Of a stretch of 64,000 bases of DNA, positions 30,829 to 58,452 are shown one piece after another. A program made the position numbers and the translations under genes. Numbering within the stretch: the stretch's first letter is position 1; every line of letters starts with the position of its first letter. This stretch comes from an uncultured Porphyromonadaceae bacterium (GTDB lineage: Bacteria; Bacteroidota; Bacteroidia; Bacteroidales; Muribaculaceae), in the NCBI GenBank assembly GCA_947575235.1, contig CANPMT010000001.1, forward strand, positions 1-64,000, read 5' to 3'. The notes below the pieces were generated by a model. It was not told where the DNA came from. It saw only the letters and a program-made list of their open reading frames with translations, and did not search any database.

Positions 30829-30888
30829 TAAAATATCACAGGCCACGCGCCTGAGAAAGGTTTAAGCACATTTTTTTAATGCATTCGG

Positions 30889-31504: not shown

Positions 31505-31727
31505 AATCCATATATCAACGGTCAGGAAGATCCTCGCGTCGCCTGAACCGGTGACTCTGACTGTCTGCACGGCCAAAGGGGAAGTCCAGACCTACCGCCG
31601 TTGCGTGGGGCTGAAGGCCGACCATTACTCCGGCACCCGGCGCGTGAAACTGCTCGACTCGGGCGAGATCCGGCGCATACGCGACTCCCTGATTCTCGCC
31701 CTCAATGACATGGAAGTTTTAATCTGA
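31494..31727 (+). CDS. Hypothetical phage protein
   Basis: 77 aa from ATG 31,494, small beta-rich basic protein (TLTVCTAKGEVQTYRRCVGL). It overlaps the upstream gene and lies 17 nt before the lysozyme. Function unknown. Confidence 0.6.
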   Translation: MANRIHISTVRKILASPEPVTLTVCTAKGEVQTYRRCVGLKADHYSGTRRVKLLDSGEIRRIRDSLILALNDMEVLI

Positions 31728-31744
31728 CTCTAACCGATACTATT

Positions 31745-33192: not shown

Positions 33193-33204
33193 ACATCTCA
33201 AGAT

Positions 33205-33585: not shown

Positions 33586-33586
33586 T

Positions 33587-34975: not shown

Positions 34976-35516
34976 CGCCATATCCTTCTTCCGGAGGCTC
35001 ACCGAGATCAACCGCCTCGCCCGACGCGAGGGGTTCCGGTTCTGCACCGTGTCGGGTCTTGACGGTTTCGAGGACGCGCTGCATTCGGCCCTCGATGCCA
35101 CAGCCCTGGTGTGTGTCGATGATACCTCCGACGGAGCCATCGACATCGAGAACACTCCCCATAAGAAGCGGTTCCACATGGTGTATCTCTTTATGCGGCA
35201 CACCACTGAGGAGAACTGGATGGAGGCCCGTCAGGAATGTTTCGAGATCATGAGGGAGCTCTTCCGGCAGTTCCTCTCGGTGATTATCCGGGAGCGCACA
35301 CGTCTGCGACTCGATAACATCGTGGTGAATCCGCAGGTCAATTTCCATGAGATCGACCGCTATTTCTTCACCGGAGGGGCTTGCGCATGGTTCCAGCTTG
35401 AGATCGACCGTTATGTATCACTTGAATTAAATCCGGAGGAATGGACAGAGACACCGCTGCCGCCAAGGCTGTCGAGGCTCGACGTAAATACGCCCAGGCC
35501 TGGAACAGCACCATGA
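34959..35516 (+). CDS. Phage neck/connector protein
   Basis: 185 aa from ATG 34,959, overlapping the portal stop. Alpha/beta soluble protein (FHMVYLFMRHTTEENWMEAR). Its last 76 nt (35,441-35,516) are also the start of the next gene in another frame, so the C-terminus is dual-coded. Head-tail connector is the likely role by position. Confidence 0.65.
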   Translation: MNRDFDAISFFRRLTEINRLARREGFRFCTVSGLDGFEDALHSALDATALVCVDDTSDGAIDIENTPHKKRFHMVYLFMRHTTEENWMEARQECFEIMRELFRQFLSVIIRERTRLRLDNIVVNPQVNFHEIDRYFFTGGACAWFQLEIDRYVSLELNPEEWTETPLPPRLSRLDVNTPRPGTAP

Positions 35517-35986
35517 TCGAGATATGGAAGGAGCGTCTCCAGGCTCTCGGTGTGTTCGACACCGGAGCACTGATGATGTCGCTCAAGGCTGATGCCGTCG
35601 TCGCCGACCCTGATTATATGGAGATCACCTTCAACCAGGAGTTCAAGGGGTATGGTCTCTTTGTCGATGCCGGAACAGGCCGCGAGACCTATATCGGGAA
35701 TCCCGGCGACATCAGGAGCCGTGGCGATGCCTACCGCCGGGAACATGGTCTGAACGAACCGCGCAAGAAGGGTCCGAAATGGGGCGGCGGCTACACCTCC
35801 GGCCGGATGAGGACACGACGGGAATGGTTTCACAGGAAGTATTTCATGAGTTACCGCAATATCCTGGAGTTCCTCGCCGCCAACCTTGGCCGGCAGGCTG
35901 CCTCACAGGTGGCACGGGCGGTGGAGTCGAACGTGATATCATCAAAGACCCTTCAGGAAATTTTCAACACAAGAATCCGCACTTAA
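35441..35986 (+). CDS. Head-tail joining protein (HK97 gp10-like)
   Basis: 181 aa. The pattern FDTGALMMSLKADAV followed by GYGLFVDAGTGRETY resembles gp10-type neck proteins. The C-terminal RREWFHRKYFMSYRNILEFL is also usual for the type. It starts inside the previous gene, right after a GGAGGA, and ends 8 nt before the tape measure gene. Confidence 0.7.
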   Translation: MDRDTAAAKAVEARRKYAQAWNSTMIEIWKERLQALGVFDTGALMMSLKADAVVADPDYMEITFNQEFKGYGLFVDAGTGRETYIGNPGDIRSRGDAYRREHGLNEPRKKGPKWGGGYTSGRMRTRREWFHRKYFMSYRNILEFLAANLGRQAASQVARAVESNVISSKTLQEIFNTRIRT

Positions 35987-35994
35987 TCACTATT

Positions 35995-42404: not shown

Positions 42405-43549
42405 AAATTCCCCGTGAAATGTTTCGCCTCTTCAGGGCCATTCTTGTCGCGTCCCTGCAGGTATTTGTTGGTGGTGGATATGTCGGAATGCCGTGCCTGG
42501 TCGCGTGCAACGACCACCCCCACCTCATTCGAGAGGTCGCGTATGCCGGTGTCCTTCAGGGAATAGAATTGCAGTTCCGGGCCAAACCCTAACTTCTTGC
42601 GCAGTTTGGCCCAGGACTTGTTGAACTGGTCGGCTCCGAAATGTTCGGCCGAGGGATAGAAATGGCGGCCGAACAGGAACCAGTCGCCCGGGCGTGTCAG
42701 TACCCCGAGGTCGATCATGAGCGTCACAAGTTTCTCATTGAGGGAGACTGTGCCGTTCTTATGGTTTTTCGAGAACTGGGCAGGGACAAAGACATTCATT
42801 TTCTTCACCGATATATCCCTTATCTTCAGATAACTGAGCTCCGTAGGACGGATGAAGGTAAAATACTCCATCAGCACGGCAAGGAGGAAATGGCGGTCAT
42901 GTTCCTCAAGATAACTGACCACCCTTTTCATCTGGTCGGGGGTCAGGGGCTGACGTTTCTTCTCCTCCTCCGGCATTTTCTTTATGCAGTCGGTGGGATT
43001 TTCGGTGATATACTTGCGGGCCTTCATCCATTCGGCCACGGAGCCGAGCCATTGCCGGTAATTGTTGCGTGTGCGGGCCGAGAGGTCGCGGTCATAGAGC
43101 ACCCAGTCGAGGAAGTCGATGCAGAAGGTGGAGTCGAACTGATAGGCGAATTTTATCGGAAGCTGGCGCGACTCTATATATTCCCTCAGGATGTTGAGAC
43201 GCGATGTGTATGAGTGGACAGTCTTGGCTCTCATACCCTTGGAGAGCGACTCCTCATATTTGGAGAGAACATCCACAAAAAGCGTGTAACCTCTATTGTT
43301 ATCGGTAGATACGAAGGGATTGTAGCCTTGCCGGAGACGGGTGCTCATCACCTCGATATACTCGGCAATCTGGCGTTTCTGCTCACGTTTGGAGCTGATG
43401 TTGTCAAAGAATTTCTTGACCCGGCGCATGGTTTCTGTGGCGGGGTCGAACACGTAGAAGTCTACATAGACATTCTTGCCGTAGTGAGCGCGAGGATAGC
43501 GGAAACCCAATAAACTATCAAAATCGCGGGAAGTTCTGTTAGGGCGCAT
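42401..43549 (-). CDS. int: Tyrosine recombinase (phage integrase)
   Basis: 382 aa from ATG 43,549; an upstream ATG at 43,582 would add 11 residues. It has an N-terminal SAM-like core-binding domain (about 90-185) and a catalytic domain with Arg in FTFIRPTELSYL, YSLKDTGIRDL (the Bacteroidetes variant with Y-x-L-K in place of H-x-L-R), ARDQARHSD and nucleophile Tyr in TTNKYLQ. It integrates the phage at tRNA-Ser and lies 160 bp from the attR core. Confidence 0.93.
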   Translation of the reverse strand: MRPNRTSRDFDSLLGFRYPRAHYGKNVYVDFYVFDPATETMRRVKKFFDNISSKREQKRQIAEYIEVMSTRLRQGYNPFVSTDNNRGYTLFVDVLSKYEESLSKGMRAKTVHSYTSRLNILREYIESRQLPIKFAYQFDSTFCIDFLDWVLYDRDLSARTRNNYRQWLGSVAEWMKARKYITENPTDCIKKMPEEEKKRQPLTPDQMKRVVSYLEEHDRHFLLAVLMEYFTFIRPTELSYLKIRDISVKKMNVFVPAQFSKNHKNGTVSLNEKLVTLMIDLGVLTRPGDWFLFGRHFYPSAEHFGADQFNKSWAKLRKKLGFGPELQFYSLKDTGIRDLSNEVGVVVARDQARHSDISTTNKYLQGRDKNGPEEAKHFTGNF

Positions 43550-43582
43550 TTTTTTAATGCATTCTTCTGGGGAGACCGTCAA

Positions 43583-43701
43583 AATGCATTGATGTATACG
43601 CTTGGACTCTTATCACACAGACCGTGAAGCACCGTCCAAATAGCGTCCACAGCCTTTAAACAAAAATCGCGTAACCAACTGTGTTAGAGCTAATTACGCG
43701 T
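43583..43701. promoter_or_regulatory. attP arm region upstream of integrase
   Basis: Noncoding sequence between int and the attR core. It holds the inverted pair CGCGTAA (43,668-43,674) / TTACGCG (43,694-43,700) next to the core and short repeats (ACCGTCCA, GCGTCCA), plausible arm or core-flank sites for integrase. Confidence 0.4.
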
Positions 43702-43722
43702 TAATTGGCGGAGAGGGAGGGA
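43702..43722. other. attR core
   Basis: 21 bp identical to attL (9,080-9,100). It covers the last 17 nt of tRNA-Ser including CCA, so the tRNA is restored after integration. Confidence 0.92.
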
Positions 43723-43793
43723 TTCGAACCCCCGGAGGTGTGACCCTCAACGGTTTTCAAGACCGCCGCAATCGACCACTCTGCCACCTCTCC
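43706..43793 (-). tRNA. tRNA-Ser(UGA)
   Basis: An 88-nt class II tRNA on the minus strand: acceptor GGAGAGG/CCTCTCC, discriminator G and encoded CCA, anticodon loop CTTGAAA (anticodon TGA), a long variable arm, and GTTCGAATC T-loop. Its 3' end is the phage integration site. Confidence 0.96.
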
Positions 43794-45100: not shown

Positions 45101-45118
45101 ACGGACACATCAATCAAT

Positions 45119-45160
45119 GGAAATGCCCGGTTCCACATATTGTGGTGCCGGGCATTTTCT
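45119..45160. terminator. Bidirectional terminator
   Basis: AAATGCCCGG (45,121-45,130) pairs with CCGGGCATTT (45,148-45,157), with an inner CCACA/TGTGG. It has T-rich sequence on one side and A-rich on the other, serving the DMT gene and the end of the minus-strand operon. Confidence 0.9.
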
Positions 45161-45164
45161 GTTG

Positions 45165-46847
45165 TTACTTGACGTTGGTCGGGTAAGTATAATCTATCTT
45201 GGGAGCAGTGGTCTCGAACTGCGGCATACACATTCCGGTGACCGATCCCACATACGTCGGATCAGAAACATAGAACTGTTTCCCCTCGTGCATATACCCT
45301 GTTCCTTTTACCGATTCGCCGGGCAACGCCACCGAGGCGCTCTCATGCCCGGGGAAGAAGAGAAGCTGGTTCTCCAGTCCGAGCGCGTGCCACAGCAGAT
45401 AGGTGTAGAAGATTGCCCTGTCCTCACAGTCGTTCTTCGGGTAGTAGAGATTCTCCTCGAGGAAATATGGTTTCTCGAAGCCGTGGAAATCATTGTCGGT
45501 GGCATAGTCGAAACCGAACTGTACAAATTGCAGAAGTTCGTTCGTGGCCTCCAGTGCACCTTTACCACCCAACTGTTCCTTCACCTGACGCACAAGGTCG
45601 GTGCGCAACGAGGGGTCAAGCTCACTCATGGCGAAGTCGGCTGTCTCCATCTGGGGATAACGGTAGACCACCGGCATCAGATTCTCGTTGAGCGTGCCGC
45701 TGAGATGGAGATTGCCGTAGTTGACATCGAATTTACGTGGCTTTACCGGAAGGTTCAACCCTTTCACAAGCATATCCATCCTCTTCCCGGCTGAGGCTAC
45801 CTTGGGAAGGTCGCATGTCGACACCCCCTGACCCTGCAAGTTCACGTTCCCCGGGTTCATCACATAGTAACGCTCCCCGTCGAAGGTGAGGTAACTCTTG
45901 CCGTAAATCGTCTGACGCGACGGCAGCAGAATCAGCGGGTCGCCGGTGACTGTGGCCACACCGATACGGGCATCGTATCCCATGTTGGCAAGGAGATAAT
46001 GCACAGCCGACATTCGGGAGGATATTCCCGATTTCGGGAATTTACTGTCCATATAGGCGCAAAGGAACTCGAATGTAAGATAGTCGTTGAGACCCAGACG
46101 CTCGATTGTGGGTTTCAACGCCTCTCCTACCTTTGAGGCCACCTCCTGATCGTTGAGCTGCCGCCAGCTGCGGGCAAGATCCGACACCTTTGTCATATTC
46201 TCCATCAGACTGAAATCAACCTCCGGCACCGTTATCTCCATGCCATAGAAACCGACCTTCTCACCCTCCGGCTCCGGCACTTCCGGCTCGGGCGCAACGG
46301 GCGTCTCGGCTATCGGCTCCGGCACCACAGGCTCCGGCTCAATTGTTTCATAAGGCAACGGTATGGCAGGGAGATGGGGGATGGCTCCGAGCACCGGTGT
46401 GCCCACATCGGGACGCACCTTCAATGTCGGTGGCGTCTCGCGAAGTGCCTCGGGAGGTATCACGGTCTTGGGCACGTCGAAAGGTGATGACGGCTCGGCG
46501 GCCTCCTCTTCCGGCTCATACGGTAGCGCGGGACGCGACGTAAGGGGGATAGTGCCCAACTTCGGTTCGGGCAACGTCACGGGGCGCGTCGATGGCTTGC
46601 TCACCTTGACGCTCGGCACCTTTATCGGTTTCGGCGGGTTATCCCTCTTGTCAAGCGGCATAAGGGGTTCATACTCATGCCATGTCCCGTCAAGGAAATC
46701 GGCATAATGCTCAAGTATCGTACTTCTGAAGTCCTGGAAGTCATTGAGTATGCCTTGACGGAATTCCTGGAATCCGGCAGGCACATCTGCTCCGAGAGGC
46801 ATGACACCTCCTATCAGGGCTGTCAGTGAGAGTAATATCTTTTTCAT
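45165..46847 (-). CDS. Exported transglutaminase-like protein (paralog 1)
   Basis: 560 aa with a signal peptide (cut near 20). An N-terminal helical motif (GFQEFRQGILNDFQDF, LEHYADFLDGTWHEYE) is shared with the paralog at 52,617. A Pro/Glu-rich linker (about 70-195) is followed by a C-terminal transglutaminase-like core with Cys474 in NDCEDRA, His501 in PGHESA and Asp529 in VSDPTY. Such folds cleave or transfer on peptide bonds or crosslink proteins. It is the last gene of the minus-strand operon, 29 nt after the DUF4384-like gene. Confidence 0.75.
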   Translation of the reverse strand: MKKILLSLTALIGGVMPLGADVPAGFQEFRQGILNDFQDFRSTILEHYADFLDGTWHEYEPLMPLDKRDNPPKPIKVPSVKVSKPSTRPVTLPEPKLGTIPLTSRPALPYEPEEEAAEPSSPFDVPKTVIPPEALRETPPTLKVRPDVGTPVLGAIPHLPAIPLPYETIEPEPVVPEPIAETPVAPEPEVPEPEGEKVGFYGMEITVPEVDFSLMENMTKVSDLARSWRQLNDQEVASKVGEALKPTIERLGLNDYLTFEFLCAYMDSKFPKSGISSRMSAVHYLLANMGYDARIGVATVTGDPLILLPSRQTIYGKSYLTFDGERYYVMNPGNVNLQGQGVSTCDLPKVASAGKRMDMLVKGLNLPVKPRKFDVNYGNLHLSGTLNENLMPVVYRYPQMETADFAMSELDPSLRTDLVRQVKEQLGGKGALEATNELLQFVQFGFDYATDNDFHGFEKPYFLEENLYYPKNDCEDRAIFYTYLLWHALGLENQLLFFPGHESASVALPGESVKGTGYMHEGKQFYVSDPTYVGSVTGMCMPQFETTAPKIDYTYPTNVK

Positions 46848-46876
46848 AGCTGAAGGTTTTACGAACCTCCACCCCG

Positions 46877-47776
46877 TCAGTCGGGGAAGAGTTTCAGGTT
46901 AATCTGTTTCACATTCATCTTGCTGTCGTTGCTGCGGTTCTTGACAAGCCAGCGCGAGAACTCCTCTGGCGAGAGATACGGAAGACTCTGGTCTGACTTG
47001 GCCGCGTGCATCACCGGACGCGAGAATGCGTTGGGCGAGAATATCACATACAGCTTGTTAAATTCAACATCGCCGTCGGTGGCTATCTCAAACTCCTGGA
47101 TCTCTCCGAACGTACCCTCGGCCTTGGAGCGGTCGAAGAACACATATTCATAGTCTTTCTTCACCTTCACCTCCTGGCCGGGATCGGTGGGATAAGGTAG
47201 CATCTGCCACACCTCATCATTCTCCAGCATGAGATACACACCCACATACCCATCCACGGGGGCGGAGAACCATAGGAAGAGGTCGTCGCCTGAATGATAC
47301 TCGGTCGACGCCATCTCGCGGCGCGACCCGTTGCGCAGGGCGAGTGCCTCGAAATCCACTGCCTCGTTGGTGAGGCCGCGGGCGGTGCCGCTTATCGTAC
47401 ACCTCACCACAAGATTGTCATCCTTGTCGAGGCTCACCTCATATACCGGATCGCCCGAGTCGGCTATCCATTCCCCCTTCACCTCCGACGAGGAGAGGGC
47501 GAAGAAATTAGTGCTCTCGCCGTTGGAGCCCATGCGTTCGGCCTGCACGATATCCTGACTGACGATGGTGCCGAATTCCTTGGCTATGGCGTCAAGACGC
47601 GCCCCTTCGAGAGCCTTGCGCTTGCTCATGGCGGGGGAGTCATTGCGGTCGCCGTAATATGTGTACACGCCGCTCACTTTCTTCACCCCGGAAGCACCAT
47701 ATGCCGCACCGGCGCAAAGGGTGCAACAGGCAGCCGCGGTGAGAAGCGAGCTAAGTAATCTCATTCTGTTAATCAT
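46877..47776 (-). CDS. Exported DUF4384-like protein
   Basis: 299 aa with a signal peptide. Residues 33-130 resemble an LPP20/flagellar-assembly-like fold (KRKALEGARLDAIAKEFG). Residues 160-260 match the DUF4384 pattern (GDDLFLWFSAPVDGYVGVYL, DEVWQMLPYP). DUF4384 domains accompany caspase-like proteases in other bacteria. It overlaps the caspase gene by 4 nt, indicating tight coupling. Periplasmic or envelope location is inferred. Confidence 0.7.
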   Translation of the reverse strand: MINRMRLLSSLLTAAACCTLCAGAAYGASGVKKVSGVYTYYGDRNDSPAMSKRKALEGARLDAIAKEFGTIVSQDIVQAERMGSNGESTNFFALSSSEVKGEWIADSGDPVYEVSLDKDDNLVVRCTISGTARGLTNEAVDFEALALRNGSRREMASTEYHSGDDLFLWFSAPVDGYVGVYLMLENDEVWQMLPYPTDPGQEVKVKKDYEYVFFDRSKAEGTFGEIQEFEIATDGDVEFNKLYVIFSPNAFSRPVMHAAKSDQSLPYLSPEEFSRWLVKNRSNDSKMNVKQINLKLFPD

Positions 47777-50280
47777 CTTCTTAACCTCTTTTTGTTTATC
47801 TCTCCAGCCACGGCCCCGGTGACGTTAAGCGTAGGGGTCTGCGGCTTGTTGAGCGTGAGACTGGCCGTCTTCTCCACCTCGCTCTTGACATATTCGGCCA
47901 GATCAGCCAAGGTGGCGTTACCCTTGGTCTGCTGAAGTTTCTTCAGCAGATAGTAGGTGAAGAGTCCATGATTCTTCTCTTTCCATGGCAGGGCCGTCTG
48001 GTTGCCGTCGGCTGCGCTCAGCACATACATACTCCCTTTCGGAGCGGTTGGGGCAGCCTTGAGCACTACCCCTCGGGCGGCGGCAAGCATACCCTCCCCA
48101 CGGTTGGCTCCACTGAAGCAGGCATCCATGAATACCATCACATTCTCCGCTCCCATCCCGCTCAACTCCTGATAGAGCTGGCTGAGCGGATAAGCTGTGG
48201 CCATGACCATAGGGTCGGCGTCGACGGGAAGGAGGTAAGCCTCTTTCGAATTCTCGTCGGGCACCCCATGTCCGGCATAGTAGAATATCACGTCTGTGCC
48301 GTCGCCGAGAGCCTTAACCGAATTCTTCAGCTGACTGATGGCCGAGAGCATATTGCCGAATGTGGCGTCGTTGACGTATATCACCTGCCTGTCGGGTATG
48401 CCGAGTGTCTCGCGGCAGTAGCGTGCGAATATCTCGCCGTCATGACGCGCGGAGGCCACGTCGCTCACCTTGCCGTAGTTCTCATTGGCTATCACAAGGG
48501 CTATGGTTGAGGTGTTGTTCTGCTTGTTTACGGGGATATCCTTATCGACGTCACTCTCCACTGTCACTACCGTAACCTTGCTACCTTCAGCCTCCGGTCG
48601 GTTAGACTCGGAGCGTGTATTATCGGCCATGAAGAGAGTGGGGTCAACCTCCACCACGGGTGGAGCGTAGGCTAATAGCGCGTTGGAGTTGTAGGTATAT
48701 TCCTTACCTGCCGGTGTGCGGAAGGTTATGTTGGAAATGGCTATATTGTCGTTGAGGATGAAGAACTTGGCATTGCGTATCTGCACCTTCTCCCACTGGC
48801 TCTTGAACATCTCGGCCTCCTTGTTTTTCAGAGGCACCTTTATGTAGACAGGTCCGAAGTCGGAGTTGACGGCATACGTCTCGTTCTCCACGTCATAAGG
48901 CTGCAGGGTGAGTTCTGACAGCACAAGATGACCGGCGTATTCCTTGAGATAGCGCTCCTCGGTGACGGCGCTGAGCCGTTCCTGCTCCTTCCGGATATTC
49001 TCGGGAGCCATACGCCTGGTGTAATCATCCACCTTCTCGAATTCACCGCGCTGCGCCCACTTCTTCATCTCTCCGGTGACGTAGGCACGGGCATACTCCT
49101 GATATGAGGGTATGTTGCGCGGTGAGGCACCCCTGCCGGGCGCCTGCGGGTCACCGATAATCGAGGGGAGGTCGTTCATTGCCACGGGGGAGGCTCCCAA
49201 GGCAGTGAGACGCACATTCACGGCATCCACTTTCGATTTGTTGCCCAATGTGGCATAGGCCGAGGCCATGGCTTTGAGATATTTCTCGTTGTTGGGGTCA
49301 TTGTCGGCCAGTTCCTCATATTTCTCGGCGGCGGTCGAGAAATAGGCGTTGCTCTGGCGCCGGCTTCTCGCGGCATCCTTCTCTGTGGCGGCCGTGATGC
49401 TCTCGTTGTAGTGGGAAGTGCCGAGGTTGTAATAGCATCGGGCTATGCTCTCATTGATGTTGAGGCTGTTGGGGTGCATCTCATCAAGACGCATATACAC
49501 GTCGAGAGCCGCGCGGTAATTCTGGTTATCCTCAAACCCCTGGGCCTGGAGATTCAGCAGACGCTCATCATTAGGTTTGAGAGTGAGCGCACGCTCCACG
49601 AGGGGGTAAAGCGACTGGCGGTCGGAGGTGTCAAGACATAGCTGCATCGCTATGGTGAGAATCTGGTAGTTGGCCGGATACTCGTCAGCCGCCTTCACCA
49701 TTGCGGCCACACCTCTCTGCTGCTGACCGGTCTGGAGTATGGCCTGACCATAGAAAAGACTCACCGCCTCGCGGTTCTTCTTATCTTCCGTCGAGAGGTA
49801 TTCCTCGAAGTAACGGATGGCATTCTCGATATCCCCCGAATTATAGGAACCGGAGGCGGCCACGTATACAAGAGCGGGATAAAGCTCCGCGTCACGCCTG
49901 AAGTCGACACCTGCCATCTGAGGAAGAAGCTGAGTGTCGACGTAGGCACGCGCGAAACGTGTCATCCCCTGACTGTCGTTGTTGATTGAATGATGCACGG
50001 AGGCTTTGGCCATTATCGGGTTAAGGTCGATCAGGATACCTTTGCATTGGTCGGCATCCTCATCGCTTACACTGTCAGCAGCCAGCGCACCGATAGCCTC
50101 GGTCACAGCCTGGTAGGCTTTCTCATAGACCTCTGTCTCGGGGGCGCCGTCAAACTGAAGGGTGCGCACCTCCTTGTAGGTCTCCGCCGCATCTTCGGCC
50201 GTAGCCCCGAACGCCACCGGAGTGGCGGCCAAGGCGAGGGCCGCAAGCATCTGTAGTATGGATCTGTATGGTTTTATCAT
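47773..50280 (-). CDS. Exported TPR-caspase-like protease
   Basis: 835 aa. It has a signal peptide (to about 26), TPR-like helices about 135-345, a middle domain about 393-540 shared with two other operon proteins, an acidic linker, and a caspase-like C14 domain about 590-820. The catalytic His671 (FYYAGHG) and Cys721 (DACFSG) are intact. Bacterial homologues cleave after Arg/Lys or Asp depending on the pocket; specificity is not deducible. Secretion to the periplasm or surface separates it from cytosolic metacaspases. Confidence 0.88.
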   Translation of the reverse strand: MIKPYRSILQMLAALALAATPVAFGATAEDAAETYKEVRTLQFDGAPETEVYEKAYQAVTEAIGALAADSVSDEDADQCKGILIDLNPIMAKASVHHSINNDSQGMTRFARAYVDTQLLPQMAGVDFRRDAELYPALVYVAASGSYNSGDIENAIRYFEEYLSTEDKKNREAVSLFYGQAILQTGQQQRGVAAMVKAADEYPANYQILTIAMQLCLDTSDRQSLYPLVERALTLKPNDERLLNLQAQGFEDNQNYRAALDVYMRLDEMHPNSLNINESIARCYYNLGTSHYNESITAATEKDAARSRRQSNAYFSTAAEKYEELADNDPNNEKYLKAMASAYATLGNKSKVDAVNVRLTALGASPVAMNDLPSIIGDPQAPGRGASPRNIPSYQEYARAYVTGEMKKWAQRGEFEKVDDYTRRMAPENIRKEQERLSAVTEERYLKEYAGHLVLSELTLQPYDVENETYAVNSDFGPVYIKVPLKNKEAEMFKSQWEKVQIRNAKFFILNDNIAISNITFRTPAGKEYTYNSNALLAYAPPVVEVDPTLFMADNTRSESNRPEAEGSKVTVVTVESDVDKDIPVNKQNNTSTIALVIANENYGKVSDVASARHDGEIFARYCRETLGIPDRQVIYVNDATFGNMLSAISQLKNSVKALGDGTDVIFYYAGHGVPDENSKEAYLLPVDADPMVMATAYPLSQLYQELSGMGAENVMVFMDACFSGANRGEGMLAAARGVVLKAAPTAPKGSMYVLSAADGNQTALPWKEKNHGLFTYYLLKKLQQTKGNATLADLAEYVKSEVEKTASLTLNKPQTPTLNVTGAVAGEINKKRLRR

Positions 50281-50309
50281 TTTCTCAGGTTAGTTTGTCA
50301 TAGTCAATG

Positions 50310-52559
50310 TCAGAATACATCGACAAAAGTGAAGTTGGCCGTGATACGCCGGAACTCGCTACCCTTCCCCTCCGACACGTCCACCTTGAACGTATAGTCG
50401 GAATCCATCTTGGAGAGGTTGCCCACATTCTTCTGCAGATAATCCTTCACGGCCGCTCCGCGCAGGAATGCGAGCTGACGGTTCTCGTTGACGCCATCGG
50501 CTGCGGTGACTGTTATGGCGGTGAGGTCGCCGTTCTCATAGATGGGCTCATCCTCGAAGTCGCCGTAGCTGCCATCGTAGGCTATGGTGCGTATGATCGG
50601 AGTGGCGTCGGCTGTGCCGGAGATTGTCACCCTCAGTTTCTTCCCATCTTTTATATACTGGGCAAAGTCACCCTCGAAGGCCTCCTTCACAATCTTGAGC
50701 ATCGAACCGGCCGCACCCGACTCCTCCACGTGGTATTTACCCGGCGGGAAATCCTCCACTGCCGAGAACTCCGGATCCACCTGATAGGTGAAGTTCACCT
50801 CATAATTGAGTATCTTCTCCCCGTTGGCGTTATAGTCGGGCACAATGCGGGAGTCAACCGCTATATTGGTATGGTTTGAGATCACATCGTTATGGATGGC
50901 CTCCTCCATCACCTTGGCGCGAAGTTCCTGAAGTTTGAGCTCCTCCATCTGTTGCTGCTGCAGAATCTCAAGCGACACCACATTGGCGTCATTCCCCATG
51001 AAATTCATAGCCACACGGTTCACGTTGTTGTATTCGTAAGTCTTGCCGTCGGCCTTGTTGAACACCTTGGCATAGATTATCTCGAATGTATCGTCGGGAA
51101 GCACGCCATACTGCACATCCGAAAGGATAAGGTCGCCGGCGTCATGGAATGATGTCACGTCGCTCTCCGGCACCGGAAGATAGATGGTGGGCATCGTGCT
51201 GAACGAGAGGGCGAGCACCTGGTTGGTGCGGTCGTAGTTGCCGAGACTCATTGTCTGGTCGGCCAGAAGGTCGCCGGCAAGACGGGTGGATATCTCATCC
51301 TCGAAAAGGCGGCGCTGACGTGCGCGGCTCTCCTCGTTGACACGCAGACGGTAATCCTCCATCGACTCGCCGGGCATCATCCTCTGCCATTCATCCATCA
51401 GCTGGTCAACCTGGTCGGCTATCAGCTTTGTGTAATGCGGTTCGAGTCCGGTGATACGCCGCGCTCCCACGGCATCAGTAAGTGTATATGCCAGGATTGA
51501 ATTGCCGTCGGCATCCTTTATGAAAGCCATGTCTCCCACACCCCCGGCCTCTACGGGAATGGTGTTGCGGTCGTCGGGACGCACAAGGTTGATCAGTTCA
51601 ATCGATGTGGGGGAGGTGGCCACGGCTATATATTTGCCGTCGAAGTTGAAGGCGCAGCTCAATGCGTCGCCCAAGTTATCAAGGTCATTCTTTATATCGA
51701 AGCGGCGCGTGTCATAGAGTGTCAGGAAACCGTCGGCGGTGAGCACACCCAACTCGTTGCTGTCGATGTTGAACGCGATATCGGTCACCAACTCGCCGTA
51801 ATTCCAGTCGCGGCGCAGTTTCTTCTCCTCGAAGTTGTATACGACCACACGGTCATCGGCGCGTAATGCCAGATAATATGCATTGTCGCTCACCACCATA
51901 GCCTCGGGCAGGAAGGGGAGCTCCATCTTGTCAATAAGCTCCATCTTACGCGGTTCGAACACAAACAGACCCTTCTCTGTGGCCACAAGCACCTTGCGCC
52001 CGTCAGCCGTATAGGCTATGGCCGAGGGCTCTCCGTAATGCTTGGTGTCAAACTTGGCGAGTTCTTTCTTCTCCTGCTCCGTGGAGTAGAAACCGGCGTT
52101 TCTCACACCCTTTTTATCGATTGTTATCACACCGAAACTCACGCCGGTGGGATTCACCTGCAGCCCTCTGAGGGGAAATTTATCCTGCAGCAGGATATTA
52201 CCGCGCAACGTGGCTACCGCATTGTCAAGCAAGGGATATACGATGGTGTTGTATGGAGCGAGCCCGATGGGGGTTGACTGTTGCCGGAACAGATAATCTG
52301 TGCGTTTCTGCGACTCCGGATAACCGGCGCCTACGTCGGTGGTCACAGCCACGTTGGCCTTACCCTCTCTGCGCTCCTTCCTCTCCCTTTTCTCCTGTTT
52401 CTTTCTCTCTTTCTCGGCCTCAGGGTCGATCTCCCCGCTCTCGACTTTCTTGAGATATTGCTTCTGCGATCTCCAGTCGGTTTCTGACTGGGCCGATGCG
52501 TTGAAAGCCGCCCCCGACAAGAGGAGCGACGCTGCGAGTGGTATGTATACTATCTTCAT
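50310..52559 (-). CDS. Exported beta-propeller / OmpA-like protein
   Basis: 749 aa with a signal peptide (ASA-Q near 24) and a very basic stretch (52-68). A WD40/YVTN-like propeller covers about 100-370 (IAYTADGRKVLVATEKGLFV, IAFNIDSNELGVLTADGFL). The shared middle domain is about 378-522, and a C-terminal OmpA-like peptidoglycan-binding domain about 640-745 (VTISGTADATP, NRQLAFLRGAAVKDYL). It could anchor the complex to the cell wall. No lipobox is present. Confidence 0.8.
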   Translation of the reverse strand: MKIVYIPLAASLLLSGAAFNASAQSETDWRSQKQYLKKVESGEIDPEAEKERKKQEKRERKERREGKANVAVTTDVGAGYPESQKRTDYLFRQQSTPIGLAPYNTIVYPLLDNAVATLRGNILLQDKFPLRGLQVNPTGVSFGVITIDKKGVRNAGFYSTEQEKKELAKFDTKHYGEPSAIAYTADGRKVLVATEKGLFVFEPRKMELIDKMELPFLPEAMVVSDNAYYLALRADDRVVVYNFEEKKLRRDWNYGELVTDIAFNIDSNELGVLTADGFLTLYDTRRFDIKNDLDNLGDALSCAFNFDGKYIAVATSPTSIELINLVRPDDRNTIPVEAGGVGDMAFIKDADGNSILAYTLTDAVGARRITGLEPHYTKLIADQVDQLMDEWQRMMPGESMEDYRLRVNEESRARQRRLFEDEISTRLAGDLLADQTMSLGNYDRTNQVLALSFSTMPTIYLPVPESDVTSFHDAGDLILSDVQYGVLPDDTFEIIYAKVFNKADGKTYEYNNVNRVAMNFMGNDANVVSLEILQQQQMEELKLQELRAKVMEEAIHNDVISNHTNIAVDSRIVPDYNANGEKILNYEVNFTYQVDPEFSAVEDFPPGKYHVEESGAAGSMLKIVKEAFEGDFAQYIKDGKKLRVTISGTADATPIIRTIAYDGSYGDFEDEPIYENGDLTAITVTAADGVNENRQLAFLRGAAVKDYLQKNVGNLSKMDSDYTFKVDVSEGKGSEFRRITANFTFVDVF

Positions 52560-52616
52560 GGTGCAGTCAAAATGTCATGTCAGGTTTTTCATCGGAGGAG
52601 CGTTCCCCTCCGGCTT

Positions 52617-54185
52617 TCAGTCACGTTTGTAACTGAGGTCGATCACAGGTTCCACACCCGAGAACCGGCGCATGCACTGGCCGGTGGGGGCACCCTGATA
52701 GGTGGGGTCGGATATGAAGTATTTATCCGTCTCCTTGGTGTAGTGTTCGTTACCACCCCACACCTTCTCTGCCTTGATGGCTGTGGCCTCATGCCAGGGA
52801 TAGGCTATGAGATCGGCCTCAAGTCCGAGCGCGTTCCAGAGGAGATAACTGTAAAACACGGCCCTGTCCTCACAGTCACACTTCGGATAGAAGAGACTCT
52901 CCTCAAAGAAGTATGGTTTCTCGAAGCCGTGGAAATCCTCGTCGGTCGAATAGGTGAATCCGAACTGTATCATGGCCAACAGCTTGTCGGCAGCCTGAAG
53001 CGGATCCATATCGCCGAGCTGTTCCTTCACCTGGCGCACCACATCCTGGCGCATCTCCGGAAGTATGCAGGAATCGGCAAACCCGCCGGTGTTCATCTGC
53101 GGATAACGGTAGAGCATCGGAATCACATTCTGGTTCATCTCACCCTCCAGGCGGAGGTCGCCGTAGGCGAATGAATAGTAGTAGGGATTGTAGGGGAGTT
53201 TCACCCCGTTCATCCTCAGTTTCATCGCTTTACCGGTCTCGCCATCCGAGGGGAGGTCGGGGGTCATGAGCCCCATCCTTTTGGTTGCCTCTCTGCCGGG
53301 TGTCGAGAATACGTAGTAGGGCTGCTCCAGACGCAGAGCCGAACGTCCGAACACCTGCTCCTCGAATGGTATGAGCATATAGGGAAGAAGGTTGTTATCC
53401 ATAGCCAACCTCACCCCGAAACCCATATGTGTGAGCAGATAATGCGTGAGCGACATCTTGGAGGCGTCGTTGGCATGGGGGAATTTACCGTCGGCATATG
53501 CCATTATCATCTTGAAGATAAGATAATCGCTCAGTCCGGTTACCTCCTGCACACCTTTTATACCCTCGATAAGGGTGTCGGCCACGTTGCTCTCTACAAG
53601 ACTATCCCACTGGCGGGCATAGTCGGAGGTGGAGACGACACTGTCGGCTATCGCGAAACTCACCTTAGGAAGGGCGAATTTCATACCGTAGAAGTTGAAC
53701 ACCTCATCATCTGTGGCCGTAGCGAAACCTCTGCGTGTCACTATATCCCCCTCCGGGCCCGGTTCAGCTGAAGCTTCCTCCTCAGCCGGAGCGGCGTTGT
53801 AGAGGTTACCTGCCCTTCTCATCCATGAGAGATAGGCCGGATCGATTTTCGGAGCCATCTCCTGCAGGTCGGCTTTCCTGAAGCCGAAGTCGAGCATAAG
53901 CTGTTTCCTCTGGTCGTCGGCCTCCTCTGTCTCAAGAAAGTCGGCTACAGGCATCTCCGAGGGTTTCGGCTCCGTGAATTTGCTCATGGCCTCAAGACTC
54001 TCATACTCATGCCAGGTGCCGTCAAGGAAATCGGAATAATGCTCGAGTATGCGGCTCTTGAAACTGTTGAAGTCGTCAAACAGTCCCTTGCGGAACTCCT
54101 CGAACCCTTTGGGAGGTGCGGCATAGACCGGAGTCATGGCACACAACACCATGGCTCCGGCACAAAGCTTTGCAAATCTCATCAA
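52617..54185 (-). CDS. Exported transglutaminase-like protein (paralog 2)
   Basis: 522 aa with a signal peptide (to about 22). The N-terminal GFEEFRKGLFDDFNSF motif followed by DGTWHEYE is shared with paralog 1, but the linker is shorter. Catalytic set: Cys438 in CDCEDRA (Cys436 also near), His465 in PWHEAT, Asp493 in ISDPTY. Long C-terminal blocks align with paralog 1 (VVRQVKEQLG, DFHGFEKPYF), so one arose by duplication. It overlaps the upstream gene by 4 nt. Confidence 0.78.
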   Translation of the reverse strand: MMRFAKLCAGAMVLCAMTPVYAAPPKGFEEFRKGLFDDFNSFKSRILEHYSDFLDGTWHEYESLEAMSKFTEPKPSEMPVADFLETEEADDQRKQLMLDFGFRKADLQEMAPKIDPAYLSWMRRAGNLYNAAPAEEEASAEPGPEGDIVTRRGFATATDDEVFNFYGMKFALPKVSFAIADSVVSTSDYARQWDSLVESNVADTLIEGIKGVQEVTGLSDYLIFKMIMAYADGKFPHANDASKMSLTHYLLTHMGFGVRLAMDNNLLPYMLIPFEEQVFGRSALRLEQPYYVFSTPGREATKRMGLMTPDLPSDGETGKAMKLRMNGVKLPYNPYYYSFAYGDLRLEGEMNQNVIPMLYRYPQMNTGGFADSCILPEMRQDVVRQVKEQLGDMDPLQAADKLLAMIQFGFTYSTDEDFHGFEKPYFFEESLFYPKCDCEDRAVFYSYLLWNALGLEADLIAYPWHEATAIKAEKVWGGNEHYTKETDKYFISDPTYQGAPTGQCMRRFSGVEPVIDLSYKRD

Positions 54186-54817
54186 TCGGCTATTTTGTCA
54201 TTGGCATATTCACGCACCTTGTCGGCATATTCGCGGGCCAGCTCGCTGTCTTTGATGGCTGCCTCTATGGCTTTCTGACGCGCTGTGCGTGCCTTATCCT
54301 CATTCACGATGTAGAATGCCTGCACCTCATAAGTGCCGTCAGCATTCTCCTTGATGATTGAATAGCTCGGTATGAGCACATTCTTTACTGTCTGCTCAAC
54401 GAGGCGCTCGTAGGCTGCGTAGAATTTCTCATACTCCCCCTCGGCGGTGGCGTCGGAGCCATCGCCAAACGAATCGCTTACCACACGTCCCTTGACAGTG
54501 CTGTTGGCCTTCTGGGCATACTTGAGAGTTGCGTTGTTGAGAGCCATCTGCTCGCCGAGGTTCTTCGATTTTGTACGGGTTGATATGCCGTCAAACACCA
54601 GACCGTTATCCCCGAGCTCATTGAGGGTGGCGTAGTGTTTGTTGAGCGCCACCTCCATCGTGCGGCTTCCCATGATTTCGAATCCCTTCTTCTTGTATTC
54701 CTTCATCTTCTCCTTCACCTCTTTCTTCTGGGCTTTCTCGATAGCCTTGTTGTAATTCTGTGCGTAGACCGGCGCAAGGAAACAGAACGCCAGCAGAATT
54801 GTCAAAATCTTCTTCAT
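54182..54817 (-). CDS. Exported LPP20-like protein
   Basis: 211 aa with a signal peptide (VYA-Q at about 19). Charged helices (KAIEKAQKKEVKEKMKEYKK), then a central alpha/beta part resembling LPP20-type envelope proteins (GEQMALNNATLKYAQKANST) and a helical C-terminus. No lipobox. It is coupled to paralog 2 by an ATGA overlap and may be a scaffold or adaptor. Confidence 0.6.
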   Translation of the reverse strand: MKKILTILLAFCFLAPVYAQNYNKAIEKAQKKEVKEKMKEYKKKGFEIMGSRTMEVALNKHYATLNELGDNGLVFDGISTRTKSKNLGEQMALNNATLKYAQKANSTVKGRVVSDSFGDGSDATAEGEYEKFYAAYERLVEQTVKNVLIPSYSIIKENADGTYEVQAFYIVNEDKARTARQKAIEAAIKDSELAREYADKVREYANDKIAD

Positions 54818-54900
54818 GATAGTGTAATTTATGTGTAAAATTTATTATGTAATATTATATTATGAGATTTAAGAAACAAGTCTCAAAACTTCATTATCTC

Positions 54901-56763
54901 TCAGAACTTCATTGTCTGCCACTCCTCGTTGAGGCTGTCGCTCCATTTGAGAGTAGGCTGCTGCGGCTTCTTGTTCACAAGAATCGACTGTTGCGACACA
55001 TTGTCGCGCACATATTCAGCCAACTCCCCTATTGTGACGTCGCCGGCAGTCTCATTCAGCTTCTTAAGCAGATAATAGGAGAAGAGTCCATGGTTTTTCT
55101 CGGCATAGGGATATGCAGTCTGGTCGCCCGAGGCGGCTGAGAACACAATCAGGTTTCCTGAAGCAGGCACCTCCTTCGGTTTGAGTTTCACACCGCGTGC
55201 GCTCGCAAGCATACCGTCGCCTCGGAGCGAGCCGGAGAAACAGGCGTCAAGAAGCGCCACGGTATGATGGGCGTTCAGACTCCCGAGTTCAGCATACAGA
55301 CGGCTCACGGGGTAACAGGTCTCGGTGTTGGAACCCTGCGCATCCACCGGAAGCAGATACGCGCTGCGGTTGCTCTCGTCGGGTATACCATGCCCGGCAT
55401 AATAGAATATCACATCCACGTCACCCTTGAAAGCCTCTGTCACCGCCTTTATATCCTCGATGGCCGCCACCATGTCGCCATAAGTGGCATCATAGTAGGT
55501 GCGCACGTTTGTCTCGGGCAGACCTAAGGTGCGGGTGAAATATTTCTCAAGTATACGGGCGTCATTCTGGGCGTAATCGACATTCGCCACGCGCTGATAG
55601 TTCTCGTTACCGATGATTACGGCAAATGTGCGCTCGCGTTTCTCCACAGCGGCGGGTATCTCGATGTCAATCGCATCGGGTGCGTAGGTTTTCTTCTCCT
55701 TAACCTTAGTCTCGCGGGCAGCCAACTGCGCCTCATACTCCTTGAGCGAGGCAAGCGGCGTGACGAGAAGCATCACCTCATCCATGTCATCCTCCACGTA
55801 AGCGCGGGGAGAGGAATAGGTCTTGTCGCCGAGTGTGAATGTGCAGCTCAGCACACCTACAGTGTCGTCGATGATACCATAGGTGGGTGTCACCTCAACA
55901 TTCTTCCAGTTACTGGCGAATTCCTCCGCCTCCTCCTGGGGCACGGCTGCGTAAAGCGTGCCCATATCACCTGCATACATCGGGAACAGACCGTTATCAG
56001 CGTCATATTCCTCCAGTGTACCCTTCACGAAATAGGGTGCGAATGTGCGGAGAAATTCAGTACGCGAGGTTGCGACCGCCTCGTCGATCATCTTCTTGCG
56101 GTTCTGTTCGTTGACACGTGATTCCCACTGTGCTACAGTCTCATAGCTTTTGCGTTTCTGCCATTGCTCAATCTCAGTGAGGTAATTGTCGCGTGTGAAC
56201 TGCTTGAAGTTTGCAGTCATGTTGCCCACCTTGTCGATATCTGCGGGGTTCACGTTGGTGAGCTGTGCGTATACCGGAATCTCCTTGCAATTATATATTG
56301 CGTCGAGCACGACATACTGGGGATACATCATTGTTGTGCCGCGCAGACGCTTGAGCTGCTTGCACCCTTTGAATATACCATGTTCGCCGAATCCGTAGCT
56401 GCCGTCCGACACTTTCGACACAGCCTTGTCAGGCATGATGGCGCTTTCGAGAGCTGAACAGTTCCAGAACGCCTCGGCACCGATATAATTGACAGTCTTA
56501 GGAATAACTATTGAACGCAGATTCTTGCAACGCTCGAAACCCTTCTCCTCGATCTGGGTCACCGGATAGAATCGTCCGTTGATCGACACGCGTTCCGGAA
56601 TCTCCACATTCACCAGTTCCTTACTTTTGGCAGCGCGGCACTTCGCCTCGTTCTGCCCCTTGATGAGTTCATACCTGATATTGTCGATCACAACATCAGC
56701 CGCCAGGCACCATGCCCAGCTGAAAACACAACCCAATATTACTACTAATCTCTTCATAATCAA
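54901..56763 (-). CDS. Exported LRR-caspase-like protease
   Basis: 620 aa. Signal peptide to about 22, BspA-type leucine-rich repeats about 45-145 (GFERCKNLRSIVIPKTVNYI, AEAFWNCSALESAIMP), the shared middle domain about 195-345, and a caspase-like domain about 378-605 with His458 (FYYAGHG) and Cys508 (DACFSG). Its caspase domain is clearly related to that of the TPR protein (ENYxxVxxVxxAxxDxxI, EKNHGLFxYYLLKKL). The repeats may recognise a surface ligand. An alternative start at 56,757 is possible. Confidence 0.88.
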   Translation of the reverse strand: MIMKRLVVILGCVFSWAWCLAADVVIDNIRYELIKGQNEAKCRAAKSKELVNVEIPERVSINGRFYPVTQIEEKGFERCKNLRSIVIPKTVNYIGAEAFWNCSALESAIMPDKAVSKVSDGSYGFGEHGIFKGCKQLKRLRGTTMMYPQYVVLDAIYNCKEIPVYAQLTNVNPADIDKVGNMTANFKQFTRDNYLTEIEQWQKRKSYETVAQWESRVNEQNRKKMIDEAVATSRTEFLRTFAPYFVKGTLEEYDADNGLFPMYAGDMGTLYAAVPQEEAEEFASNWKNVEVTPTYGIIDDTVGVLSCTFTLGDKTYSSPRAYVEDDMDEVMLLVTPLASLKEYEAQLAARETKVKEKKTYAPDAIDIEIPAAVEKRERTFAVIIGNENYQRVANVDYAQNDARILEKYFTRTLGLPETNVRTYYDATYGDMVAAIEDIKAVTEAFKGDVDVIFYYAGHGIPDESNRSAYLLPVDAQGSNTETCYPVSRLYAELGSLNAHHTVALLDACFSGSLRGDGMLASARGVKLKPKEVPASGNLIVFSAASGDQTAYPYAEKNHGLFSYYLLKKLNETAGDVTIGELAEYVRDNVSQQSILVNKKPQQPTLKWSDSLNEEWQTMKF

Positions 56764-56822
56764 TTATTCATCAACACTATTATACATCACAACAGTGAGT
56801 TTTTCCAAGCAACGGAGCCTTG

Positions 56823-57563
56823 TTATTGCTTATCTAAGTTTTCGAATACCCAACTTGCCCACCAATGATCTTTATAATACACCAATGATTCTCCATATGA
56901 CATTCCTCCTACATTTATATATCCTGTCAAATCATAGGTAACATTATTGTGTTTATATGAGCTTACAGCCTGAATCGGATATGAATCTCCTGCATGAATA
57001 TTCATATCCACCGGTATGGTATAATCATAAGTTGAGTTTGATTTTGTAAGCCTTATACTTTCACCACCGGGTAATGTGAAATCAGCTCCCTCTTCATCCT
57101 CATTCGGGAAATATTCTATCCGCAAGATCGTTCCCGGATAGACAACCATTATGTCAAAATACTTTCTTAAAGAACCGGTGCTTAATTTCTCAGTTCTCCA
57201 TACCTTTCCATCCACCATCACATAGTTTTCCGGATTGGATGCAATATCCTCCTCAGACCCTATCCCGGTTATGACATCAAATTCCTTTGTGAAACTGTAT
57301 TCTTTACTCTGGTATGAATAATCATATTTTGAAACTGCGTTCAATTTGAGATACCCAGGTTCAACTTTCTCTGAAAACGTGTCTGCATCATAAATTTCCA
57401 AGTCCAAAATGCCGAACGAAAGGTTGGTAACTGTGAAATTCACAGTACCTTGCTCATGAGCAGGAAGATACACATCCTCTGTGTCGTAGCTGCAGCTCTG
57501 CATAAACGACATGAAGCCGACAACCGCAAGAGCGGTTGCAAGCATATTGTAAAATTTCTTCAT
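56823..57563 (-). CDS. Lipoprotein of unknown function
   Basis: 246 aa with a lipobox (FMQS-C, Cys24) and a beta-rich mature part (FTVTNLSFGILDLEIYD). It is more AT-rich than the caspase genes. It lies 59 bp upstream of the LRR-caspase gene and 18 bp downstream of the barrel gene, with no clear terminator between, so it may be the second gene of the same operon. Confidence 0.65.
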   Translation of the reverse strand: MKKFYNMLATALAVVGFMSFMQSCSYDTEDVYLPAHEQGTVNFTVTNLSFGILDLEIYDADTFSEKVEPGYLKLNAVSKYDYSYQSKEYSFTKEFDVITGIGSEEDIASNPENYVMVDGKVWRTEKLSTGSLRKYFDIMVVYPGTILRIEYFPNEDEEGADFTLPGGESIRLTKSNSTYDYTIPVDMNIHAGDSYPIQAVSSYKHNNVTYDLTGYINVGGMSYGESLVYYKDHWWASWVFENLDKQ

Positions 57564-57581
57564 AATAGACTGATTTTAAGA

Positions 57582-58307
57582 TTAGAAATCAAAGCTCAGC
57601 GAGAGCATGAACGCTCCGTCCGTAACTTTACGCACATCATACTCTTGAACCGTCATATCATCATATCCCCCACCGACCGTGTTATATGAATATTGAGCCT
57701 CTATTTTTTTCCTGACAAAAGGATTGTAACATATACCTAAGTTAAAACCACTTTTTCTCCCCATTCGAAAACGGGCACCTATCGTCGGCATAAAATATAC
57801 TCCGTTTTCAGGTTTTGCATAAGTATCCAGATATCCTCCTTCATTATAAGAGTAACCGGTTCCGCCTGATTCATCAATATTCACACCAATCTGGTATCCT
57901 ATCTTCAAATCAACAAACGGTGTAATTTTCTTGCGTATATCCAAATCCCATCTTATATCTACATACATAGGGATATTGATTGAATAAAAAGCTATCGTAT
58001 GGTCCACATAACTATCTGAAGGATTATAGTAATATGAACTATCATAACTCTTTCCTCCGGTTAACACAGAGTATGCACCTACTCCCACACCAGCATAAAG
58101 GTATGGAAATATCTGACACCCATGTGTAGTGTTTAATCCAAAAGCATATTCTGCTTTGATATCTGTCACCTTTAAGCTTCCGGCATACACGTTGGTCTTG
58201 CCGCCCGTTCCGACGCCTCCCATTATATCGAAGAAGCCACGGTAGCTGACAGCTGAAGCCGTTAGAGCTGCAATGCCGAATATGCCTGCAATTGCTAATC
58301 TTTTCAT
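57582..58307 (-). CDS. Outer-membrane beta-barrel protein
   Basis: 241 aa with a signal peptide and alternating amphipathic strands ending in an aromatic residue (AFMLSLSFDF), the usual outer-membrane barrel terminus. It resembles small 8-10-strand barrels (Gly/Tyr rich, YLYAGVGVGAYSVLTGG). It is the first gene after the operon promoter and could be a surface anchor or channel for the downstream proteins. Confidence 0.75.
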   Translation of the reverse strand: MKRLAIAGIFGIAALTASAVSYRGFFDIMGGVGTGGKTNVYAGSLKVTDIKAEYAFGLNTTHGCQIFPYLYAGVGVGAYSVLTGGKSYDSSYYYNPSDSYVDHTIAFYSINIPMYVDIRWDLDIRKKITPFVDLKIGYQIGVNIDESGGTGYSYNEGGYLDTYAKPENGVYFMPTIGARFRMGRKSGFNLGICYNPFVRKKIEAQYSYNTVGGGYDDMTVQEYDVRKVTDGAFMLSLSFDF

Positions 58308-58420: not shown

Positions 58421-58452
58421 CAAAGTTATACAAAAATTAGCTTACCTCCAAA
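58421..58452 (-). promoter_or_regulatory. Promoter of the caspase/transglutaminase operon
   Basis: On the minus strand: TTTG 58,452-58,449, exactly 20 nt, TAACTTTG 58,428-58,421. Predicted start near 58,414, giving a ~107-nt leader before ATG 58,307. No comparably good promoter was noticed inside the operon. Confidence 0.7.

Follow-up and report, generated by a model that had tools for sequence, protein, structure and literature searches.

A nine-gene cluster of apparently exported proteins with caspase-fold and transglutaminase-fold enzymes in a Muribaculaceae genome, and its recurring five-gene core

Most discussion treats bacterial caspases as cytosolic proteins or as proteins of unknown role. 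In excerpts of the respective papers, TPR and WD40 partners are given as common among prokaryotic metacaspases (PMC3501461), LapG as a calcium-binding periplasmic protease of the transglutaminase fold (PMC4359373), HvyA of Caulobacter (BTLCP family) as an exported putative protease of the same fold that regulates the capsule (PMC4241560), Asp576/Asn584/Arg591 as the peptidoglycan-binding residues of PorE (PMC7192894), and the Muribaculaceae as dominant in the mouse gut (PMC6381624). Here, a cluster of nine genes (g1 to g9, positions 45165-58307) was analysed in a stretch of 64,000 nucleotides (nt), called the window, from an uncultured Muribaculaceae bacterium (GenBank assembly GCA_947575235.1, contig CANPMT010000001.1). 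The cluster encodes two caspase-fold proteins and two members of a family named TGL for 'transglutaminase-like' (g5, g9 and their relatives). The draft genome holding the window comprises 3.3 Mb in 135 contigs and is ~90% complete by estimate; by title, the named relatives nearest to it are metagenome-assembled genomes of Muribaculaceae or 'Porphyromonadaceae'.

The nine genes and their five-gene core

A first-pass annotation, made from the sequence alone, had described nine consecutive open reading frames (ORFs) on the minus strand at 45165-58307 with short gaps, and this was borne out. In order of transcription, the genes are as follows.

57582..58307, minus strand: g1, predicted exported protein of 241 amino acids (aa), probable outer-membrane barrel, lineage-specific
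56823..57563, minus strand: g2, lipoprotein-like, 246 aa
54901..56757, minus strand: g3, BspA-type LRR, shared module and caspase protease
54182..54817, minus strand: g4, LPP20-like, predicted exported protein, core gene, conserved in the cassette
52617..54185, minus strand: g5, diverged paralogue of g9 and second protein of the LapG-like/transglutaminase-fold type
50310..52559, minus strand: g6, helical N-terminus, WD40-type propeller, shared module and OmpA_C-like domain, core scaffold
47773..50280, minus strand: g7, core caspase protease with TPR and shared module
46877..47776, minus strand: g8, DUF4384-like, predicted exported protein, core gene, overlapping g7 by 4 nt
45165..46847, minus strand: g9, LapG-like/transglutaminase-fold cysteine enzyme, core gene

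The gaps from g1 to g9 are 18, 65, 83, -4 or -1, 57, 29, -4 and 29 nt. Three 4-nt overlaps had been described; a clear one exists at g7/g8 only, and the overlap of g4/g5 depends on the start codon (4 nt with TTG, 1 nt with ATG).

The conserved unit consists not of nine genes but of five, encoding the propeller-OmpA protein, the TPR-caspase, the DUF4384-like protein, the LPP20-like protein and TGL. In 61 near genomes (the own genome, 36 of its genus and 24 of its order), a match to g7 was present in 33. Twenty loci were fetched from these genomes: nine contained all five families, and four more contained three or four; of those four, three are truncated by a contig end. The remaining seven had a shorter caspase, with a DUF4384-like gene nearby in six cases and a TGL gene in three.

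Named Bacteroidales loci were collected with an alignment as query, a single-protein query having found nothing, and the best 80 of 374 confirmed loci were picked by similarity to the g7 family. Because they were chosen for closeness to g7, they overstate the generality of the cassette; they include fragments and several loci from one assembly, and nine lie on the same contigs as the loci used for profile building. Family profiles detected the propeller-OmpA family (OMPA) in 70 of the 80 loci, DUF4384 in 68, TGL in 50, LPP20-like in 46 and all five families in 39. The commonest order, OMPA>CASP>DUF4384>LPP20>TGL (CASP being the caspase family), occurred in 27 loci, with median gaps between neighbours of 9-52 nt. 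The next commonest complete order, LPP20>OMPA>CASP>DUF4384>TGL, occurred in seven and is that of the window's nearest kin. Strands agreed for 318 of 324 cassette genes. When the nine profile-building contigs were omitted, 71 loci were left, 33 with all five families, 22 in the commonest order and 277/283 genes on one strand. Among 50 loci with ample flanks, 30 had all five genes and 36 had TGL. The locus titles span Muribaculaceae, Bacteroides, Prevotella, Alistipes or Rikenellaceae, and Odoribacter, and Odoribacter lunatus DSM 112344 (L068) is a named strain with all five genes.

Linkage was assessed in a wide sample of 295 genomes drawn evenly from the order, the own genome being left out of the counts (294). 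Chance expectation was calculated for uniform placement in 3.0 Mb genomes, and genes within 10 kb were regarded as neighbours. Pieces of one TGL ORF were merged and 79 loci kept. For OMPA, 8 of 21 rows were kept and 13 propeller- or module-only rows dropped. For the caspase, TPR-only rows (G268, G275, G082:C37, G068) and short fragments (G227:C248, G125:C71) were dropped, two G116 pieces were merged, and 124 rows were kept; genome G057 also gave one DUF4384 profile row. TGL was found in at least 68 genomes, a caspase of this type in at least 66, DUF4384-like in at least 29, OMPA (strict) in at least 6 and LPP20-like in at least 8, these counts being lower bounds because the first search pass scores few candidates per genome. 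A caspase lay within 10 kb of TGL at 16/77 loci (0.55 expected), DUF4384 near a caspase at 18/31 (0.37 expected), TGL near DUF4384 at 11/77 (0.22 expected) and LPP20-like near TGL at 5/8. This linkage is ~30-50 fold above the simple chance estimate, and TGL and caspase co-occurred in 39 genomes versus 15.3 expected. The association in the cassette is real and probably of long standing, yet loose, and the complete set of five is rare and in the minority. Of the proposed co-occurrence in conserved order, the five-gene core remains, which recurs in order; the nine-gene unit is not kept.

An upstream GH3 gene is kept in loci L053, L056, L058 and L041, and a downstream transporter gene in L054 and L055. 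The kept flanks therefore make the cluster look like a resident locus and not a mobile island. A plasmid or phage origin was considered and rejected, the matches being only partial (two plasmid records and one phage record). In the GH3-sharing relatives L056, L058 and L041 (the same contig as L069), the cassette begins at the LPP20-like gene, and L053 carries two g1-like barrels at the cassette start. The window's g1, g2, g3 and second TGL gene (g5) are lineage additions. Because g3 comes from another caspase lineage and g5 is a divergent TGL, the operon looks like two caspase-TGL units in series, namely g3, g4 and g5 followed by g6, g7, g8 and g9.

Enzymes, scaffold and small proteins

Two caspase-fold proteins with intact His/Cys dyads had been described, and both stand. 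Peptidase_C14 matched g3 with an E-value of 4.6e-27 (95.6 bits versus a cut-off of 21.4; LRR_5 also matched, E 1e-9) and g7 with 1.5e-19 (71.1 bits versus 21.4); these were the only two matches of this profile in the ~90% complete draft genome.

47824..48504, minus strand: caspase domain of g7

Invariance was scored in an alignment of one window protein and 49 of 61 loci rows, filtered by length and coverage. H671 and C721 of g7 were invariant in 50/50 aligned relatives, and so was the Asp pair D614/D719, which we take to be the S1 pocket of metacaspases that marks Lys/Arg specificity; the caspase is predicted to cut after Lys/Arg. The dyad of g3 is intact by sequence. The possibility that g3 is a copy of g7 was rejected, as the tree puts g3 in a separate caspase lineage. 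Locus L085 contains a second cassette (18112-22598) with a DUF4384-like gene, then module and caspase as separate ORFs, then TGL; its caspase provides the closest join of g3 in the tree (support 97/44).

A propeller-OmpA protein had been predicted for g6. Its predicted model reached a predicted local distance difference test (pLDDT) score of 85.9 and has a WD40-type propeller fold. The fold matches listed are propeller proteins only, so the list is no test of the OmpA part. The C-terminal part alone matched OmpA (PF00691) with an E-value of 0.0056, below the Pfam cut-off (17.4 versus 27.2 bits), but the predicted ligand residues D651, N693 and R700 were invariant in 49/49 aligned proteins (one window protein and 48 of 62 loci rows, filtered by length and coverage). 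They are equivalent to those of PorE by motif and by the N-to-R spacing of seven residues, with an insert between D and N in g6. By these residues, g6 is probably anchored to peptidoglycan.

50460..50609, minus strand: predicted peptidoglycan ligand residues D651, N693 and R700 of g6
51000..51500, minus strand: shared module in g6 (residues 354-520), by hhalign
48667..49164, minus strand: shared module in g7 (residues 373-538), by hhalign

The module of ~150 residues common to the g6 and g7 families was recognised with an hhalign probability of 98.3 and is also present in g3. It had no Pfam match over the cut-off (KTSC below it), and no name was found for it. That scaffold g6 and the caspase share this module suggests scaffold-caspase docking through it.

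The earlier description of g5 and g9 as transglutaminase-like proteins with Cys-His-Asp holds in that they are paralogues with an invariant triad, but Pfam is blind to both window proteins: Transglut_core (PF01841) matched neither over the cut-off.

45261..45428, minus strand: stretch with predicted catalytic Cys474, His501 and Asp529 of g9, conserved in 46/46

The alignment comprised two window proteins, 41 of 45 loci rows filtered by length and coverage, and three distant proteins. C474, H501 and D529 and the neighbours D473, E475 and D476 were invariant in all 46; the acidic D473/E475 beside the Cys presumably resemble the calcium site of LapG and are suggestive only. A predicted model of g9 (pLDDT 84) was compared with the PDB by fold search, and the only match below E 0.001 was chain E of 4u65 (E 6.3e-4), an entry that combines LapG with an output domain of the LapD type. 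From its length and the other matches, chain E was taken to be LapG. The next matches were a Cytophaga putative cysteine protease and more LapG entries, with the putative cysteine proteases 3isr and 3kd4 among the best; TglA and TG2 were listed at weaker E-values. PDB sequence searches with TGL and with the OmpA part gave nothing of value. The model is consistent with a transglutaminase fold with Cys-His-Asp, the fold match being modest. Because LapG, a periplasmic protease, is the best match in the PDB, proteolysis by TGL looks likelier than crosslinking. At E<=0.01, Transglut_core matched one of 46 family members (E 0.0089). When the C-terminal parts of three members were scanned alone, two matched at E 0.0049 and 0.023, below the cut-off, and that of the window protein did not match. 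As TGL profiles miss LapG and reach Transglut_core only below the cut-off, TGL is proposed to work like LapG, not to be LapG.

Proteins of the g9 type are ~560 aa long and have additional N-terminal parts. The idea that TGL contains an inactive copy of its catalytic domain at the N-terminus was dropped (profile comparison probability 14). It was also rejected that g5 is a copy of g9, since the tree gives g5 a long branch in a mostly Muribaculaceae TGL clade. Across the phylum, the catalytic part was found in 29 of 198 genomes, the own genome among them. Twenty TGL loci were fetched (12 from the phylum sample, 8 from the order), and Pfam was run on ten neighbour proteins from seven loci, picked by eye and without a background rate for such neighbours. 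LPP20 beside TGL was over the cut-off in L177, L178, L179 and L182 and below it in L183. In L184, a gene of the LpoB family (peptidoglycan synthase activator, 9717-10313) adjoins the TGL gene, and in 7 of 30 order loci (L151, L153, L155, L156, L159, L160, L162) a TGL of ~880 aa has an added C-terminal repeat part that is propeller-like by eye. This context of LPP20, LpoB and propeller-like parts suggests that TGL acts at the outer membrane and wall. In two loci of other Bacteroidota, L180 (9487-15588) and L181 (737-6573), a TGL gene lies beside tandem genes that are flagellin-like by eye.

The families of g4 and g8 could be placed weakly by sequence. An assignment of g4 as LPP20-like was not reproduced with Pfam: LPP20 (PF02169) matched 0/12 family members at E<=0.1, and profile comparison with LPP20 lipoproteins (hhalign probability 72.6) left a distant kinship possible. 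For the DUF4384-like label of g8, the result was mixed; the window protein scored below the cut-off for PF14326 (18.3 versus 27 bits), but 14 of 18 family members matched at E<=0.01. DUF4384-like and LPP20-like proteins are not supported as mutual relatives (profile comparison probability 4). No Pfam match was obtained for g1, which is 38% identical to the two L053 proteins upstream of the cassette; those two match OMP_b-brl models below the cut-off. For g2, no homologue was found among the ORFs of loci L033-L132.

Signal peptides or lipoboxes had been assigned to all nine proteins. Export was judged here from N-terminal sequences. A lipobox-like Cys was seen by eye in g2 only, and the scoring rule was crude: among the 324 cassette proteins of the named loci, it was applied to the 295 whose N-terminus is intact and gave a signal-like start for 290, while 410 of 849 other ORFs passed it as well.

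Transcription signals and weighing of explanations

The promoter scan used a pattern that we take to be the Bacteroides-type consensus.

58421..58452, minus strand: Bacteroides-type promoter pattern TTTG-N20-TAACTTTG, exact match
45112..45166, minus strand: terminator-like 3' hairpin, -24.3 kcal/mol, z -5.9, equalled by 0/200 shuffles
52593..52612, minus strand: weak hairpin between g5 and g6, -14.3 kcal/mol, z -2.1, no T-run

The pattern matched nine times in the whole window versus 0.61 expected. The match at 58421-58452 is the sole exact one right of 43.9 kb, and none lies inside the operon. Seven more TTTG/TAnnTTTG patterns occur at 8737-27870 and one at 43846-43877. The single consensus promoter claimed earlier is thus a perfect pattern, but a sigma-70-type scan also gave promoter-like sites upstream of g3 and of g4 (27 in the stretch versus 15 expected), so it need not be the only promoter of the operon. 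Similarly, the claimed terminator is a strong hairpin, between the convergent g9 and transporter gene (44204-45100, plus strand), but has no clear U-tract. The g5/g6 hairpin is a possible site of transcript processing or attenuation. The nine genes likely share one transcript.

What is observed in the cassette is its order of genes and their conservation, catalytic and wall-binding residues that do not vary, a shared module and a LapG-like model fold. The best explanation of these observations, to which we give about an even chance, is a peptidoglycan-tethered periplasmic assembly of two proteases, with a caspase-to-TGL cascade as its most specific version; periplasmic location, docking, order of activation and substrates are what we infer. 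In such an assembly, g6 would bind the cell wall via its OmpA_C-like domain and offer its propeller, and the module of g6, g7 and g3 would be a docking or oligomerisation part bringing the caspase to the scaffold. The caspase and the LapG-like TGL would act on envelope proteins. In the order that we prefer, the caspase might cut the Pro-rich linker that joins the conserved N-terminal helix of TGL to the catalytic part. TGL released in this way might then cleave a protein of the surface or outer membrane, as LapG cleaves adhesins, and substrates may be held or regulated by the LPP20-like and DUF4384-like proteins. A conserved, apparently exported caspase putatively tied to the cell wall, together with a LapG-like protease, is a concrete candidate for a role in envelope control of gut bacteria. 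The fuller version is doubtful, namely that the propeller protein senses the wall or outer membrane and docks the caspase, that the caspase activates a LapG-like protease which sheds or remodels surface proteins, and that two such units work in parallel in the window genome. If true, such a wall-sensing cascade would place caspase-type signalling beyond the cytoplasm of the bacterium.

Several results weigh against the two-protease assembly. No g7 match at E<=0.001 was found in 28 of the 61 near genomes, many of them incomplete, and TGL was absent from 14 of the 50 well-flanked cassette loci. The match to LapG is modest (template modelling score 0.49 by target, root-mean-square deviation 5.4, 17% identity). 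At E<=10, Peptidase_C93 (PF06035) matched nothing in the genome. LapD_MoxY_N also matched nothing in the ~90% complete genome, which is a weak negative because no control genome passed the cut-off either. In the wide sample, no caspase lay within 10 kb of 61/77 TGL loci and no TGL near 105/122 caspase loci; most are apart, and neither therefore needs the other everywhere. The first-pass annotation had named genes found mostly apart as evidence against its proposal, and that is the state of these 61 loci, but the 16 near ones exceed chance about thirtyfold.

This separation of most copies, together with the promoter-like sites upstream of g3 and g4, is what would be expected of exported neighbours that are merely co-transcribed and have separate jobs. 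Such a view is quite unlikely given the linkage far above chance, the order kept among loci whose titles name several bacterial families, and the module common to g6 and g7. The earlier reading of the TGLs as true transglutaminases that crosslink envelope proteins, with caspases maturing the substrates and g6 tying them to the wall, can draw on the fold with its Cys-His-Asp, on the nearness of some members to Transglut_core and on TglA and TG2 in the fold list. It was weakened and is distinctly unlikely, as no PDB entry other than one of LapG matched below E 0.001, the best matches by fold are LapG and the putative cysteine proteases 3isr and 3kd4, and acidic residues flank the Cys in all 46 proteins, presumably as in LapG.

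An accessory of outer-membrane transport or assembly, such as a PorE-like wall anchor of the type IX secretion system (T9SS) or similar, with the proteases as quality control, is unlikely. The propeller and OmpA_C of g6 are like those of PorE, 15 T9SS-tail (TIGR04183) matches were over the cut-off in the genome (contigs C1, C33, C4 and others), and some distant TGL genes lie beside LPP20 lipoproteins, one beside LpoB. However, at E<=0.01 no T9SS tail was matched in any of the nine genes (no search was aimed at T9SS component genes in the neighbourhood of the cassette), and g6 carries a different module, shows no lipobox by eye and matches neither TPR nor CRD. That the cluster is a system for cell death or phage defence, its caspases killing the cell or its envelope, is very improbable. 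The PADLOC caspase profile matches g3 (E 5e-11) and g7 (E 2e-8), and a prophage adjoins the operon.

9995..43793: prophage, left limit provisional, with integrase at 42401-43582 beside tRNA-Ser at 43706-43793

Ten of its ORFs were scanned: four matched integrase, tape measure, terminase and head protease families, two matched families of unknown function, and four had no match. The PADLOC match is, however, to the caspase domain; the other seven proteins had no PADLOC match at E<=0.01, and no partner genes of a known caspase anti-phage system were found among the nine. Moreover, signal-like N-termini would place the enzymes outside the cytoplasm, and the flanks are conserved as in a resident locus.

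Comparison with known systems

The literature covered was open-licence PMC papers, in which no description of the cassette was found. The claim that an envelope set pairing caspase-fold with transglutaminase-fold enzymes is undescribed therefore held within these papers, and the apparently exported set recurs. Singly, the domains are of known kinds, except for the shared module, for which no name was found; their combination was not found described there.

HvyA is, like TGL, an exported transglutaminase-fold putative protease, but the excerpt of its paper mentions no caspase or OmpA partner (PMC4241560). PorE, the type IX wall anchor, resembles g6 in having a propeller and a C-terminal OmpA domain with D/N/R peptidoglycan ligands. 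It is, however, a TPR-propeller-CRD-OmpA lipoprotein, whereas g6 matches neither TPR nor CRD, shows no lipobox by eye and has another module and other partners. The LapG/LapD system of adhesin release (BTLCP, Peptidase_C93) also has an exported transglutaminase-fold Cys-His-Asp enzyme, and LapG is the best PDB match of TGL; unlike LapG, TGL is missed by the C93 profile, is longer with its extra N-terminal parts, and is paired with caspases. With prokaryotic metacaspases and orthocaspases (C14), g3 and g7 share a caspase domain over the cut-off and the His-Cys dyad, but the caspases of the cassette differ from them in a signal-like N-terminus and in an undescribed module held in common with an OmpA-anchored propeller protein.

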